From Sphingomicrobium sp. (GTDB lineage Bacteria; Pseudomonadota; Alphaproteobacteria; Sphingomonadales; Sphingomonadaceae): 64,000 nucleotides of DNA. The DNA is taken from the NCBI GenBank assembly GCA_030447545.1, contig JAUJOV010000001.1:186001-250000 (forward strand). The letters are read 5' to 3'. This document shows, one piece after another, positions 18,417 to 62,302 of the stretch (the first letter of the stretch is position 1; each line of letters begins with the position of its first letter). The notes under the pieces are model-generated. The model saw only the letters and a list, made by a program, of their open reading frames with translations, was not told the origin of the DNA and did no database searches. The position numbers and the translations under genes were made by a program.

Positions 18417-18425
18417 TTATCCACA
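18417..18425. promoter_or_regulatory. Isolated perfect DnaA box
   Basis: TTATCCACA matches the DnaA box consensus exactly. It lies in the short gap between the ShlB-like gene and the subtilase start. There is a single copy, far from the origin candidate, so it may be a chance match or a DnaA titration or regulation site. Confidence 0.3.
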
Positions 18426-50763: not shown

Positions 50764-50839
50764 CCGGTGTATTGCCGTGCTCTTGCGCAGGCGGGAAGCC
50801 TAGACCAGCGAAGCCGTTGAACCGCTACGCGCGAGTGGG

Positions 50840-51726
<887 letters not shown>

Positions 51727-51728
<2 letters not shown>

Positions 51729-52506
51729 ATGCCACCCGCGCCGGCGCGGCAGCCGCCGCGATGAGCTCGCGCGAGGCTGATGGGCCTCGGACCCCCGGGC
51801 ACCTGAGGTCGTAGATCGGCGCAGGGAGCCCGTGGCTGGGCGCTTCCGACGGCGCACGTTGCGCGGGACGACCGTGTCGAACACGGTCTTGCCGAGGCCA
51901 GGCACGCACATCTTCGGCGACCTGCTGCGGGGTTTGTTGCGGCGGTCGAACATGGTCAGCGCAATCCCAGGATCTGGAGCTCGGGGTTGAACGCCTGCCG
52001 GATCCGCTCGACGGTCTGGAGCAGCTGGCTAAGGTCCTCGAGCGCGAAGAACTCGCTCTGCAGCGGCACCAGGAGGTGACGAGCTGCGACCAGGGCATTG
52101 ACCGTGAGCAGGCCGAGCGAGGGCGAACAGTCGATCAGGCAGATGTCCCAGCGGGCCGGCGGCGCCGGTCGAGTGCGCGCTCGAGGCGGCGGGCGCGGTC
52201 GGCAAGGGCAACCAGCTCGACCTCTGCGCCCGACAAATCCGCATCACTGCCGGCAGCTCGAGCCGCGGGACCCGCGTGGCGACTGCGCTGTCGATCAGCC
52301 GCGCACTGCCGATCAGCACGTCGCCCAAGCTCGACGCTCTTGCTGCGAATGACCGACGCCGGGCCGGTCGAGGCATTGCCCCTGCGGATCGAGGTCGATC
52401 AGCAGCACCTTCCAGCCGATCACCAGCGAGAGCGGTTGAAAGGTTGATGGCAGTCGTCGTCTTGCCGACTCCGCCCCTTCTGGTTCGCGACGGCGACCGT
52501 GATCAT
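51727..52506 (-). CDS. parA: Chromosome-partitioning ATPase ParA (frameshifted)
   Basis: Walker-type ATPase of about 260 residues that positions ParB-parS complexes. It begins MITVAVANQKGG; removing one G from the GGGG run near 52480 restores the deviant Walker A KGGVGKTTTAINLS. Later in-frame pieces give LLIDLDPQG-like text near 52400, IDCSPSLGLLTVNALVAAR near 52110, VPLQSEFFALEDLSQLLQTVERIRQAFNPELQILGIALTMFDRR and GKTVFDTVVPRNVR. At least six indels are present. The essential role in this group argues that the damage is technical. The ATG overlaps the rsmG stop. Confidence 0.9.
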
Positions 52507-53116
52507 CTGCGCCTGGTCCCCACCCTCGTCAGCACGACAATCCGAAGATCCGGATCCGTGCGCGCTTGGTTCCACCCGTGCGTCACAGTGCCAGCTTCGC
52601 TGCGCTTCTGCCAGTTCGGATTGTGCCCCGCCCTTCGGGGCACCCCGGACGGCGTTTTTGTGGACAGATGGTGGGATATTTCGAGGAATTTCCCGAGCGA
52701 GGACACCGCGCGGCCGGTGATCACGTCGAATTTTCCGCTCGCACGCTCGGCCTTCGCCTGAACGACCGTGACCCGCTCGCCAAGCTGGAGGGCCGAGGCG
52801 GTCTGCCTAAGGAACTCGGCGCGGAGGCGGCGCGGCTCGACCAGGGCGACGGGCCCCTCGACGAGGCAGGCGACGACGATGCCGGGCAAGCCGGCGCCCG
52901 AGCCGATATCGATCCACAACGCGCCCGGGCGAGGCTCGAAGCGACCAGCTGGGCCGGAGTCGAGGATGTGACGGTCCCCACGGTTTCGAGCGTGGAGGCG
53001 GAGACGGATTCTGTTCGCGCGCGGCGCTGGTCAGGAGGCGCAACGTAGGCATCGAGCCGCTCGAATGTTTCACGTGAAACAGGACGGCCGGCAGCTTCGG
53101 CCAGCGCCTCGATCAT
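52503..53116 (-). CDS. rsmG: 16S rRNA G527 N7-methyltransferase (frameshifted)
   Basis: About 205 residues. It starts MIEALAEAAGRPVSRETFERLDAYV. Motif I is WIDIGSGAGLPGIVVACLVEG, followed by RRLRAEFLRQTASALQLGERVTVVQAKAER and FDVITGRAVSSLGKFLE. Indels near 53030, 52920 and 52650 break the frame. VSRET is encoded by a perfect parS palindrome. The ATG overlaps the mnmG stop (ATGA), in the standard mnmE-mnmG-rsmG-parA-parB order. Confidence 0.9.
53066..53081. promoter_or_regulatory. parS: parS site 1 (inside rsmG)
   Basis: TGTTTCACGTGAAACA is an exact match to the bacterial parS palindrome bound by ParB. It lies within the first 20 codons of rsmG and encodes the VSRET residues, so coding and centromere functions share the bases. 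Confidence 0.95.
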
Positions 53117-54907: not shown

Positions 54908-54923
54908 TGTTTCACGTGAAACA
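54908..54923. promoter_or_regulatory. parS: parS site 2 (between mnmG and mnmE)
   Basis: A second exact TGTTTCACGTGAAACA, 1.84 kb from the first. Its last base abuts the stop codon of mnmE at 54924. Two perfect copies confirm a real ParB nucleation region here, about 5-7 kb from the origin candidate. Confidence 0.95.
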
Positions 54924-58579: not shown

Positions 58580-59032
58580 TCAGAAGGGCTTCACGATCAC
58601 CAGCACGACGATCAGCGCGGCGGCGATGCCGGGCAGCTCGTTGATCAGCCGGAGCGTCTTGTTCTCGAGCGGGCGCTTGCCCGCGGCCAGCCGCTTTCCA
58701 TAGACCGAGAGCCAGCCCTGATAGGCGCTGAGCGCGATCACCAGCGCGAGCTTGCCGTGGAACCAGCCCATCGCGAACGCATCGATGTGAAGCGCGAGCA
58801 TCAATCCGAGCACCCACACGACCAGCATTGCCGGCATGAGGATGATCCTTCGCACCCGGTCCTCGCGAGCGGTCCAGGCGCGGTCCTCGGCCGATCCCGG
58901 CGCGGTCTCGTGGTGATAGACGTAGAAGCGGGGGAGCAGGAACAGGCCCGCGATCCAGAACAGGACGAAGGTTACGTGCGCGGCCTTCACCCACAGATAG
59001 GCGAGCCCGAGGAATCCGGCCATTTCGCTCAT
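58580..59032 (-). CDS. hemJ: Protoporphyrinogen oxidase HemJ
   Basis: 150 residues with four membrane helices. Conserved HemJ text includes LWVKAAHVTFVLFWIAGLFLLPRFYVYH (with the key His), WFHGKLALV and KRPLENKTLRLINELPGIAAALIVVLVIVKP. It oxidises protoporphyrinogen IX to protoporphyrin IX in place of HemG or HemY. The start overlaps the hemE stop by four bases, so two heme genes are coupled here, far from hemCD at the other end of the window. Confidence 0.93.
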   Translation of the reverse strand: MSEMAGFLGLAYLWVKAAHVTFVLFWIAGLFLLPRFYVYHHETAPGSAEDRAWTAREDRVRRIILMPAMLVVWVLGLMLALHIDAFAMGWFHGKLALVIALSAYQGWLSVYGKRLAAGKRPLENKTLRLINELPGIAAALIVVLVIVKPF

Positions 59033-60093
59033 CCGCGCCCCTTTAGCAGGCTCAGCAATTGCTCGACATGGGCAATCGGCGTGTCCGGCAGGATCCCATG
59101 GCCGAGGTTGAAGATGTGCGGGCGCCCGGCAAGCGCGTCGAGGATGTGCGTGGCGGCGGTTTCGAGCGCCGCGCCGCCCGCGATCAGCGCGAGCGGGTCG
59201 AGATTGCCCTGGACGGGGAGGGCCTTGGGAAGCTCGCGGTGCGCCCAGGCGGGGTCGACGGTCTCGTCGAGGCCGATCGCGTCGACGCCCGTCTCGCTGG
59301 CGTAGGCGCCCAGCTTGCCGCCGGCGCCCTTGGGGAAGCCGATGACGGGCACGTGCGGGTGGCGCGCCTTGAGCGCCCCGACCAGCCGCGCGGTCGGAGC
59401 GATCACCCAGCGCTCGAACTCTGCCGGAGCGAGGCTTCCGGCCCAGCTGTCGAACAATTGAACGGCTTCGGCGCCGGCCTCGATCTGCCCCGAGAGATAA
59501 TCGAGCGTGACGTCTTCGATGCGCTCGACCAGCGCCTGCAGCCGCTCCGGCTGCGCATAGGCGAGCCGGCGCGTCTCGGACTGGTCGCGGATGCCCTGGC
59601 CGGCAACCATGTAGGTCGCGACCGTCCACGGGGCTCCGGCAAAGCCGATCAGGGTCGTGCGGGGTGAAAGCCGCGCCTTTACCTTGCGGACCGTGTCGTA
59701 GATTGGCGTGAGGCGCTCGGGGAACGGCTCGAGCTGGTCGAGCTCGGCGTCGCCCAACGTCGGAGTGAGCCGCGGGCCTTCGCCGGCGACGAAGGTCAGG
59801 TGCTGGCCGATCGCGAAGGGCACGATCAATATGTCGGAAAAGAGGATCGCCGCGTTGAGCCCGCCGAAGCGCTCGAGCGGCTGGAGCGTGACCTCAGCCG
59901 CGGCCGCGCTGTCGTAGACCAGCTCGAGAAAGCTTCCCTTGTGCTCGCGAAGCGCCCGGTACTCGGGCAAATAGCGGCCTGCCTGGCGCATCATCCAGAC
60001 GGGCGTCGGCTCCACTCGGCTGCCCGACAGGACGGCGAGCAACGGCTTGTCCGCGGGCGCGGTTCGGGCACGCTCGACAGGCGAGGAGGCCAC
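59029..60093 (-). CDS. hemE: Uroporphyrinogen decarboxylase
   Basis: 354 residues. Converts uroporphyrinogen III to coproporphyrinogen III. Conserved text: PVWMMRQAGRYLPEYRALRE, the FSDIL metal-free active-site region, GFAGAPWTVATYM, FDSWAG and GNLDPLALIAGG. In several alphaproteobacteria, Caulobacter among them, hemE borders the chromosome origin; the 297 bases upstream of its start have oriC-like features. Confidence 0.97.
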   Translation of the reverse strand: MASSPVERARTAPADKPLLAVLSGSRVEPTPVWMMRQAGRYLPEYRALREHKGSFLELVYDSAAAAEVTLQPLERFGGLNAAILFSDILIVPFAIGQHLTFVAGEGPRLTPTLGDAELDQLEPFPERLTPIYDTVRKVKARLSPRTTLIGFAGAPWTVATYMVAGQGIRDQSETRRLAYAQPERLQALVERIEDVTLDYLSGQIEAGAEAVQLFDSWAGSLAPAEFERWVIAPTARLVGALKARHPHVPVIGFPKGAGGKLGAYASETGVDAIGLDETVDPAWAHRELPKALPVQGNLDPLALIAGGAALETAATHILDALAGRPHIFNLGHGILPDTPIAHVEQLLSLLKGRG

Positions 60094-60390
60094 CCTCTTT
60101 TCTCCTTTTATATATTAGAATCTAAGAAGACTGATGATGTTGTTGTGCGGCGGGACGCGGGGTTTAGGCACGGCTTCCGCTTTTGCCAACAAGGAGCCCG
60201 AGCGAAGGCTCCAGGCAAAGCGGCGATTCGCTGCGGTTCGTTCCCGCGATTCACAGGCTGGGGACGGTTTGCGGCTCCCGTGGATGATTTGTGGGAACAG
60301 CCGTAATGGAGGTCGAATGGCAGTCCCGCCGAGCCGCTCCCCAGCGTCGCGCATGAGCCCCGCACCCACTTGTCCACAGGGTTTGCCGGA
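60094..60390. other. oriC: Candidate chromosomal replication origin (oriC)
   Basis: Gap between divergent hemE and maf. An AT-rich stretch lies at about 60095-60145 (CTCTTTTCTCC, TTTTATATATTAGAATCT). TTGTCCACA at 60370-60378 is one base off the DnaA box, and weaker boxes occur at 60279-60287 and 60247-60255. Three GANTC sites (60118, 60225, 60248) fit CcrM methylation. The position beside hemE, the parS pair and parAB support an origin. The call needs GC-skew or experimental proof. Confidence 0.6.
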
Positions 60391-60969
60391 GTGCTGATCC
60401 TCGCCTCGGCAAGCGCGATCCGAGCGAAGATGCTCGGCGATGCGGGCGTCGCGCACCAGGTGCTGCCGGCCGCCGTGGATGAAGCGGCGATCAAGGCCGA
60501 GGGCGAAGATCCGCAAGCGCTGGCGGCGCGGCTGGCGGAGGCGAAGGCGCTTGCCGTCAGCGCCAACCATCCGGGCTTTTGGGTGCTCGGCGGGGATTCG
60601 CTCGTGACGGTCGAAGGCCGCAGGTTCGACAAGCCCCGCACGCGAGAGGAGGCGGCCGAGCACCTGCGCCTGTTTTCCGGCCGAACCATGCTTCTGACCA
60701 GCGCGGCGTCGCTCGCGCGTGACGGGCGGGTCGACTGGACCCGCTCGGACACGGCCGAGCTCCGCGTCCGGGCCTTGTCGGACGAATTCATCCTGACCTA
60801 TCTCGCTGCCGAATGGCCGAGCGTCGCCGAGTGCGTCGGCGTGTTCCGGATGGAGGCGCTCGGGGTGCAATTGTTTGAGCGCGTCGAGGGCAGCCATTTC
60901 ACCGTGCTCGGAATGCCGCTGATCCCGCTACTCAACGCGCTCAGGGAGAGGGGCGTGCTGGCGTCGTGA
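60391..60969 (+). CDS. maf: Maf family nucleotide pyrophosphatase
   Basis: About 192 residues from GTG at 60391; a TTG at 60370 inside the DnaA box would add 7 residues. Maf hallmarks: [14 protein letters not shown] at the start, [18 protein letters not shown], and [10 protein letters not shown] with [14 protein letters not shown]. Maf-type enzymes hydrolyse non-canonical or pyrimidine nucleoside triphosphates. The stop overlaps coaE (GTGA). The frame is intact. Confidence 0.9.
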
Positions 60970-61574
60970 CGTCAACCCGCCCGCTGCGCATCGCGCTCAC
61001 CGGCTCGATCGGCATGGGCAAGTCGACCGTCGCCAAGATGTTCGAGCGCGCAGGCGTGCCGGTGTTCGACGCGGACGCTGAGGTCCGTCGGCTGCAGGGA
61101 CCGGGCGGCACGCTGGTCGATCGGATCGGCGCGCGCTTCCCTGGCGCGGTCAGCGGCGGAGTGCTCAATCGCGAGCGGCTCGCTCAGATCGCGCTCGAGG
61201 ATCCGGCGGAGCTCGCCGCCCTCGAGGCAATCGTCCACCCGGCGGTCCGCGCTGCTCGCGAGGAGTTCATCGACAGCCATTGCGCAGCACCCGCGCTAAT
61301 CTTCGAGATCCCGCTGCTGTTCGAGACCGGCGGCGAGACGGAGTTCGACCATGTGATCGTCGTCTCCGCGCCGGCCGAGGTGCAGCGCCAGCGAGTGCTT
61401 GCCCGGCCCGCAATGACCGCCGAAAAGCTCGATTCCATCCTCGCCCGCCAGCTGCCCGACGAGGAGAAAAGGGCGCGCGCCGACTTCGTCATCGACACCG
61501 GCACCCACCTATCCACAACTGAGGCCCAGGTCGGCGACATTCTTGCTTGTCTCAAGATTGGCGCGGGAGGATAG
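60966..61574 (+). CDS. coaE: Dephospho-CoA kinase
   Basis: 202 residues, from GTG overlapping the maf stop. Last enzyme of CoA synthesis. P-loop [14 protein letters not shown] at about 13-26, [38 protein letters not shown] and [18 protein letters not shown]. The 3' part contains CTATCCACA at 61509-61517, one base off a DnaA box, possibly an outlying site of the origin. Confidence 0.95.
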
Positions 61575-61579
61575 TAGCC

Positions 61580-62302
61580 ATGGGAGAGATGGCTAAGCGC
61601 ATGCGGGAAATCGTCTTCGATACCGAGACCACCGGGCTCAACCCGGCGACCGGCGACCGCATCGTCGAGATCGGCTGCATCGAGATGGTCAACCGCTGCG
61701 AGACCGGCCGGCACTTCCACGCTTATTTCAATCCCGAGCGGCCGATGCCGGTCGAGGCCGAGGCGGTGCACGGCCTGTCGACCACCTTCCTCTCGGCGCA
61801 GGCGAGGTTCTCCGAGCGGGTCGAGGAGCTGCTTGAGTTCATCGAGGATTCGCCGCTGGTCGCGCACAATGCGGGCTTCGACTTCGGCTTCCTCAACCAC
61901 GAGCTCCAGCTGTGCGGCCGCCCGTCGGTGTGCACCAGCCGGATGATCTGCACCTTGGTGCTCGCCCGATCGAAGCACCCGGGCGCAAAGCACAGCCTCG
62001 ACGCCTTGTGCACCCGCTTCGGCGTCGACCGCAGCCTTCGAGTGAAGCACGGCGCGCTGCTCGACGCCCAGCTGCTTGCGCAGGTCTATGTCGAGCTGAC
62101 CGGCGGCCGGCAGATCGGCCTCGGCCTGGTCGCCGACACCGCGGCGCAGGCCGCCGCGGCAGCCGCCGGGGCAGTCACCGTGCGCCAGCAACGCCCTGCC
62201 CGGCCGCACTTCGCTAGCGCGGAGGAACTCGAGCGGCATCGTGCGTTTATCGCACGGATCGCCAACCCGCTGTGGGAGCGCTTCGTACCGATCGCCACTT
62301 AG
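61580..62302 (+). CDS. dnaQ: DNA polymerase III epsilon (proofreading) subunit
   Basis: About 240 residues. 3'-5' exonuclease with Exo I FDTETTG (Asp14, Glu16), Exo II LVAHNAGFDFGFLNHEL and Exo III KHGALLDAQLLAQVYVEL, so it is a DEDDh type. The C-terminal stretch likely binds the polymerase. Start taken at ATG 61580; ATGs at 61589 and 61601 are also possible. Order maf-coaE-dnaQ is typical next to hemE. Confidence 0.94.
   Translation: MGEMAKRMREIVFDTETTGLNPATGDRIVEIGCIEMVNRCETGRHFHAYFNPERPMPVEAEAVHGLSTTFLSAQARFSERVEELLEFIEDSPLVAHNAGFDFGFLNHELQLCGRPSVCTSRMICTLVLARSKHPGAKHSLDALCTRFGVDRSLRVKHGALLDAQLLAQVYVELTGGRQIGLGLVADTAAQAAAAAAGAVTVRQQRPARPHFASAEELERHRAFIARIANPLWERFVPIAT

Follow-up and report, generated by a model that had tools for sequence, protein, structure and literature searches.

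The chromosomal origin of Caulobacter crescentus (Cori) lies beside hemE and is described as containing an AT-rich segment and DnaA boxes, weak ones among them (PMC1914354, PMC4468827). Five CtrA sites of the form TTAA-N7-TTAA are reported for this origin and none for some other members of the hemE type, and the Wolbachia origin of this type is listed with COG1253 as a border gene (PMC1914354). Nearer to the DNA studied here, an oriC beside hemE with conserved DnaA boxes and a DNA unwinding element (DUE) has been described for Sphingopyxis. According to the same paper, DoriC places oriC on the hemE side in most Sphingomonadaceae; the DoriC entry for S. alaskensis is elsewhere, and a move was proposed (PMC4741004). 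One Sphingomonas oriC was placed by its proximity to dnaA, recA and rnpA (PMC9716278), and dnaA is reported not to be kept near ori in Sphingomonadales (PMC8116508). A literature search for Sphingomicrobium together with oriC found no paper on the origin of this genus.

We analysed a stretch of 64,000 nucleotides (the window) that spans positions 186001-250000 of contig C3 (293,641 bp) in a Sphingomicrobium assembly of 2.32 Mb, 99 contigs and 70% completeness. The gap between hemE and maf, at ~246 kb of C3, is very probably the chromosomal origin of this sphingomonad and positionally homologous to the hemE-side origins of other alphaproteobacteria. What we observe are the sequences, their conservation and a location near a strand-polarity switch in relatives, and it is the comparison with relatives, not the window alone, that carries the conclusion. 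Since a hemE-side oriC with boxes and a DUE has been published for Sphingopyxis and resembles the present locus in all three respects, the origin is of an already recognised type. What is unusual is a likely DnaA site that has been frozen within the coding sequence of a nearby gene. The features are collected in Table 1.

Table 1. Features in and around the hemE-maf region (window coordinates).
Feature	Position	Strand	Basis
Predicted chromosomal origin (oriC), between hemE and maf	60094..60390		Boxes in 68/70 genus regions; polarity flip near locus in complete relatives
AT-rich segment, candidate DUE	60095..60145		Lowest-GC 30-mer and 50-mer of the window; AT-rich in genus alignment
Candidate hemE promoter: -35 TTGGCA (60189-60184), 17 nt, -10 TAAACC (60166-60161)	60161..60189	-	Conserved pattern; reads left through AT-rich segment
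TTGCCAACA, most conserved 9-mer of the region	60183..60191	+	Exact in 69/70 genus and 22/73 other regions; contains candidate -35
GCGATTCGC, near-palindrome around GANTC site	60223..60231		Block conservation 0.90 (70 genomes); exact GCGANTCGC in 36/70
Weak DnaA box CGATTCACA	60247..60255	+	3 mismatches; GATTCACAG block conservation 0.90
CTGGGGA, reverse of TCCCCA, resembling Caulobacter W-box	60258..60264	-	Sequence likeness to that motif
Weak DnaA box TCATCCACG	60279..60287	-	2 mismatches; block conservation 0.83
CTCCCCA, W-box-like	60337..60343	+	Sequence likeness
Best DnaA box TTGTCCACA	60370..60378	+	One mismatch; box here in 66/70 regions; block conservation 0.94
CCTATCCACAACTGA inside coaE, with DnaA box CTATCCACA at 61509-61517	61508..61522	+	Box in 24/27 readable genus members
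hemE	59029..60093	-	TIGR01464 above cut-off
maf	60391..60969	+	Maf family matches, all below curated cut-offs; probable start GTG 60391
coaE	60966..61574	+	TIGR00152 above cut-off; carries conserved internal DnaA box
dnaQ	61580..62302	+	TIGR01406 above cut-off; start ATG 61580 or 61601
parS TGTTTCACGTGAAACA	53066..53081		Exact match to presumed consensus
parS TGTTTCACGTGAAACA	54908..54923		Exact match to presumed consensus

The genus alignment comprises the hemE-maf region of 70 of 71 genomes, the window's own included; G067 gave no HemE match and was left out. The first 30 genus loci were the best HemE matches; for the coaE position, 20 further genomes were taken from the 40 that had no locus among the first set. 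A set of named genomes contributed 80 loci, four of which (L010, L025, L040 and L071, with no maf found) were left out of the box counts. Removal of three duplicates of genus members from the remaining 76 (L002, L003 and L005, which duplicate G055, G046 and G006) leaves 73 regions from other sphingomonads. The regions of 340 and 350 bp start at hemE codon 18 and thus include ~50 bp of hemE.

The intergenic region is bordered by hemE (TIGR01464), as an oriC of the hemE type requires. The second border gene of Cori, COG1806 (ppsR, PF03618), is missing, and maf is the neighbour instead in the window and in 69 of the 70 genus regions, the remaining one being cut by a contig end. This absence is not disqualifying, because accepted members of the type also lack COG1806, such as Wolbachia with COG1253. 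Among the named-genome loci, the hemE-maf gap exceeds 900 bp in 73/76 and the maf-coaE gap exceeds 600 bp in 70/71, the exceptions being genus members; other sphingomonads thereby differ from the window in mostly having room for ppsR and aroE. In L063, the hemE-maf gap holds a kinase-pyrophosphorylase gene (PF03618, ppsR) and the maf-coaE gap holds aroE. The genus region is also shorter than Cori. In 69 of 70 genus members only 298-377 bp separate fixed codons of hemE and maf, so ppsR is gone from the genus, and the window's subclade also has no room for aroE.

An earlier note on this DNA had reported one DnaA box with a single mismatch and two weaker boxes between the genes, and all three are present. 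Three additional sites with three mismatches also lie in the window's hemE-maf region, which has only one box within one mismatch. Over the whole 64-kb window, four sites fall within one mismatch of TTATCCACA compared to a shuffle mean of 1.44, and four were reached in 5 of 100 shuffles. Since four sites are barely above chance, the window by itself is weak evidence for a box cluster, and the proof is supplied by conservation in relatives. The sole perfect TTATCCACA of the window is at 18417-18425, far from the origin.

A search for conserved boxes in sphingomonads, as the earlier note had proposed, found them. In the genus, 68 of the 70 regions contain a box within one mismatch (107 boxes versus 2.4 expected from shuffles), which in 66 of the 70 takes the same place immediately before maf. 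The four regions without a box at this place are those of G017, G021, G046 and G048, the last of which is cut by a contig end. In the named-genome set, at least one box was found in the 340 bp adjoining hemE in 73 of 76 loci. Across the 65 sphingomonad loci longer than 9 kb, boxes occur at 6.6 per kb in these 340 bp versus 0.11 per kb elsewhere. Among other sphingomonads, 27/73 have a strong box pair (two mismatches or fewer to TTATCCACAGNCTGTGGA) versus 6/70 genus regions, and the window's version has four mismatches. Of the 70 genus regions, 29 carry a box of the T-to-G class (TGATTCACA or TGATCCACA) and 44 a TCCCCA on one strand or the other; both are likenesses to Cori, with its G-boxes and W-boxes. 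In five of 20 genus genomes, all with coaE displaced by ~0.85 kb (presumably by aroE), a box within one mismatch lies 64-79 bp past the end of the maf match and 942-984 bp from hemE (L257, L261, L262, L267 and L268; positions in the last two counted on the reverse strand).

The best box had been thought to overlap a possible maf start codon. This was not borne out, as the distance from box to maf falls in all three reading phases (17, 22 and 27 of 66 regions). The box therefore stands outside the coding frame, and its TTG was rejected as the maf start by this phase test across the 66 regions; maf probably starts at the GTG at 60391. The basal unwinding system is described as a DnaA box, a spacer of at most 16 bp and DnaA-trios, at least three NAN trinucleotides by the box (PMC8287927). 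By eye, a TAA-GAA-GAC run is readable in the window's AT-rich segment, with no box within 16 bp.

The near-perfect box that the earlier note had placed in coaE was confirmed as CTATCCACA. It occurs at the same codons in 24 of the 27 genus members with coaE directly after maf, the 27 being the readable genomes in which coaE is within ~1.5 kb of hemE. Could this box be a product of chance or of the encoded protein, and no DnaA site? Its distribution would fit: at that position it is absent from G013, G017 and G044 (3/27), from the 18 examined genus genomes with a displaced coaE and from 63/63 loci outside the genus (L002, L003 and L005 counted as genus). G017 and G044 belong both to the 27 and to the 20 further genomes, and in the remaining 18 of these 20, coaE is displaced by ~0.85 kb, presumably by aroE. 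We nevertheless regard this explanation as unlikely, since the codons CTA TCC ACA are identical in all 24 carriers despite the rarity of CTA (1.9% of Leu codons) and ACA (6.0% of Thr codons; gene calls on C3 from a crude script), and the neighbouring codons vary. The carriers were chosen for a box within one mismatch, a choice that alone would not force codon identity. The box is the most conserved four-codon window of coaE. The 14-mer YTATCCACAACTGA is found in 20 of 71 genomes, once in each, and in 19 of them at ~1.4 kb from hemE; the match in G051 is on a different contig from its hemE.

The coaE box is frozen at the DNA level in these 24 genomes and is probably a DnaA site for dnaQ, ~60-85 bp upstream of which it lies. 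We prefer DnaA control of dnaQ because boxes upstream of dnaQ have been reported in Caulobacter, where dnaQ is described as DnaA-regulated (Hottes 2005 as cited in PMC8203912). Both species have a predicted DnaA box upstream of dnaQ. Unlike in C. crescentus, the box here is part of the coding sequence of coaE, and the relatives in which it was seen all have coaE directly after maf. Alternatively, it may be a distal part of the origin or a titration site. In the literature cited here, we found no sphingomonad description of the coaE box or of the embedded promoter discussed below. As a likely regulator site frozen within coding sequence, the coaE box offers a case that can be tested.

The AT-rich segment claimed by the earlier note proved to be the least GC-rich part of the window: 60095-60144 is its lowest-GC 50-mer (GC 0.28) and 60096-60125 its lowest-GC 30-mer (0.20). 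The hemE-maf region as a whole has a GC content of 0.59 versus 0.67 for C3. The three GANTC sites that had been noted were found at 60118, 60225 and 60248 (1.1 expected by shuffling). Blocks were ranked by the conservation of 9-mers across the 70 genomes. The first four were TTGCCAACA at 60183-60191, the box at 60370, GCGANTCGC at 60223 and GATTCACAG at 60248, and they were followed by CGCGCTAGG at 60348, which has diverged in the window, and CGGGGTTTA at 60158; the hemE start and GTGGATGA at 60280 came next. A terminator-like stem with a T-run is located at 60083-60100, at the hemE start and the AT-rich segment (0.6 expected by chance).

The highest-ranking block, TTGCCAACA, is probably the -35 element of a predicted hemE promoter that would read through the unwinding element. 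A scan of the region with the E. coli consensus promoter found none. The pattern TTGG[CA]N-17-TANNNC is present on the hemE strand in 67/70 genus and 31/73 other regions, and outside the origin it has 12 matches in 1.69 Mb on both strands; another control, with origins included, gave 54 matches in 1.74 Mb. The promoter claim rests on this conservation, and the pattern was chosen after the alignment was seen. We read TTGCCAACA as part of a promoter because its spacing to TANNNC is fixed at 17 nt, and given this spacing a site for an unknown protein is less likely. The arrangement TTGGCA-17-TAAACC, which TTGCCAACA and the sixth-ranked block CGGGGTTTA form on the hemE strand, resembles Caulobacter promoters. 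Caulobacter Cori has a promoter inside it.

Across the 70-genome alignment, the likely embedded promoter, the GANTC near-palindrome and the box beside the downstream gene are kept, whereas full CtrA sites are absent and the IHF consensus and the strong box pair mostly so. TTAA-N7-TTAA was found in 0/70 genus and 2/73 other regions, and a looser form in 3/70 and 6/73. With no full CtrA site at the origin, CtrA is probably no direct gate on it. In Sphingomonas melonis, loss of ctrA reportedly impairs neither growth nor viability (PMC8116508). The IHF motif WATCAN5WTR was found zero times in the window's region, in 4/70 genus regions and in 7/73 others.

To follow strand polarity we used GGGNAGGG, the E. 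coli KOPS, and its subset GGGCAGGG as markers. Whole chromosomes were covered in three complete genomes using forward-strand GGGCAGGG sites only, and polarity was also sampled in stretches of G038, G026, G063, G071 and G013. In G038, 83 of 93 forward sites fall within 241398-1254590, with hemE at 240933-241964. The corresponding counts are 76 of 81 within 1033553-2191085 for G063 (hemE at 1024620-1025660) and 85 of 97 within 306660-1542444 for G026 (hemE at 295527-296582). Each of these site-rich stretches covers about half of the chromosome and switches off within ~40 kb of the point opposite hemE, and the sampled stretches agree with a flip near hemE-maf. In G013, GGGNAGGG occurs four times on the minus and never on the plus strand in 1.072-1.132 Mb, is mixed in 1.138-1.1725 Mb, and occurs 13 times on the plus and never on the minus strand in 1.174-1.263 Mb; hemE is at 1172943. 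Farther out, polarity in G013 is mixed beyond 1.27 Mb (6 plus and 6 minus sites to 1.351 Mb) and already minus at 2.0 Mb. In Erythrobacter NAP1, the flip sampled at one site per stretch lies at 2.825-2.970 Mb versus hemE at 2.677 Mb (~150-290 kb off), and the other flip is near the opposite point. A dif search with the E. coli sequence found none in the sampled stretches of G038, G071, G026 and G063; the best match to this query (20/28) is in the NAP1 stretch at 2.145 Mb, outside the expected terminus. Together, the flips in complete relatives and the genus-wide conservation of boxes support the proposal of the earlier note that replication starts between hemE and maf. In the genomes checked, dnaA is far from the origin, at 0.921 (G038), 1.989 (G063) and 1.749 Mb (G026), which is 66-83% of the distance between the origin and the point opposite it.

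Polarity resolves the origin only to the gaps between forward sites (205-241 kb in G038, 997-1034 kb in G063 and 182-307 kb in G026), and the hemE-maf region contains a likely promoter. The gap might accordingly be only a divergent regulatory region with DnaA-responsive promoters, with the true origin nearby, for example beside parS. We consider this very improbable. In the named-genome loci, box density in the 340 bp adjacent to hemE is ~60 times that of the remaining sequence, and the window's lowest-GC segment sits in the hemE-maf region. Moreover, the box stays beside the downstream gene, be that gene ppsR or maf, as expected if it belongs to the origin.

An origin at 246 kb of C3 predicts that the left arm has the opposite sign. 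The earlier note had suggested computing the cumulative GC skew and had held that a minimum elsewhere would speak against its proposal. On C3 the skew has no minimum at 246 kb; it climbs to a peak at ~268 kb and declines beyond it, which by that criterion counts against the origin. Likewise, 1-212 kb has 17 copies of GGGNAGGG on the plus strand versus two on the minus strand, a sign opposite to that of a leftward fork, and polarity is mixed over 212-293 kb. The 186-218 kb segment of C3 is inverted relative to G026 and G063. Compared with G013, C3 is collinear over 207-292 kb (one gene apart) and inverted over 186-199 kb, and its 75-93 kb segment corresponds to DNA at the beginning of the G013 contig. 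A synteny break at ~218-230 kb, drawn from G026 and G063, was superseded by this collinearity down to ~207 kb. Over 1-207 kb, neither polarity nor synteny is consistent with the origin block. Because collinearity with G013 holds only to the right of ~207 kb, synteny indicates that the left flank of the origin block is displaced on C3, by rearrangement or misassembly, and that the origin block itself is shared. Still less probable than a purely regulatory gap is an ancestral hemE-maf site from which the working origin has moved in the window's lineage: the wrong-signed polarity left of 212 kb, the weak boxes and the diverged CGCGCATGA in place of the genus consensus CGCGCTAGG would fit, but TTGCCAACA, the boxes (best and weak) and the GANTC near-palindrome all persist in the window, C3 is collinear over 207-292 kb with G013, whose polarity flips there, and the assembly is too fragmentary for its skew to be used.

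With the hemE-maf gap as the origin, its sequence elements suggest how initiation might proceed; DnaA binding, promoter activity, methylation control and dnaQ control are all predicted from them. DnaA would load at the best box, next to maf (60370), with cooperative loading at the weak boxes near 60247 and 60279, and would melt the AT-rich segment adjoining hemE (60095-60145). The putative hemE promoter inside the origin (60161-60189) would transcribe leftward through this segment and may help to open it. The GANTC sites, through CcrM methylation, may signal whether initiation has already taken place. Through the separate box in the 3' part of coaE, DnaA probably influences transcription of dnaQ. 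A more speculative scheme, which we put forward only tentatively, is that initiation in this lineage is wired without CtrA: an invariant hemE promoter would fire through the unwinding element and, after the loss of ppsR and aroE, a new DnaA site would have become fixed within coaE, where it would either couple initiation directly to the expression of dnaQ or act as a distal origin element. An origin fixed for a genus with many closed genomes anchors read-depth estimates of growth rate and replichore maps.

From this origin, the forks would run rightward through maf, coaE and dnaQ and leftward through hemE, rho, the par genes and parS. Profile matches identify maf, coaE, dnaQ and an hpf/yfiA-like gene to the right of the gap, all on the plus strand, and rho, a YjbE-like gene, mnmE and mnmG to the left of hemE, all on the minus strand. 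Farther left are fragments of rsmG (gidB) and parB, detected with Pfam, and of parA, detected by homology to G026. The neighbours by which the earlier note recognised an origin region (parS, parAB, rsmG, mnmG, mnmE and rho) are thus all alongside, the par genes and rsmG as fragments. Two perfect parS sites (TGTTTCACGTGAAACA) lie 5-7 kb from the hemE-maf region; an exact search for parS found none in 3 of 4 genomes tried. At 50808-52515, the homology to the intact ParA and ParB proteins of G026 is broken across several reading frames, which suggests consensus errors in the assembly or broken genes. One named-genome locus of 13 kb (L040) has hemE without its usual neighbours maf, coaE, dnaQ and rho. 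Among the 80 named-genome loci, maf is divergent and upstream of hemE in 76 and rho is downstream in 71.
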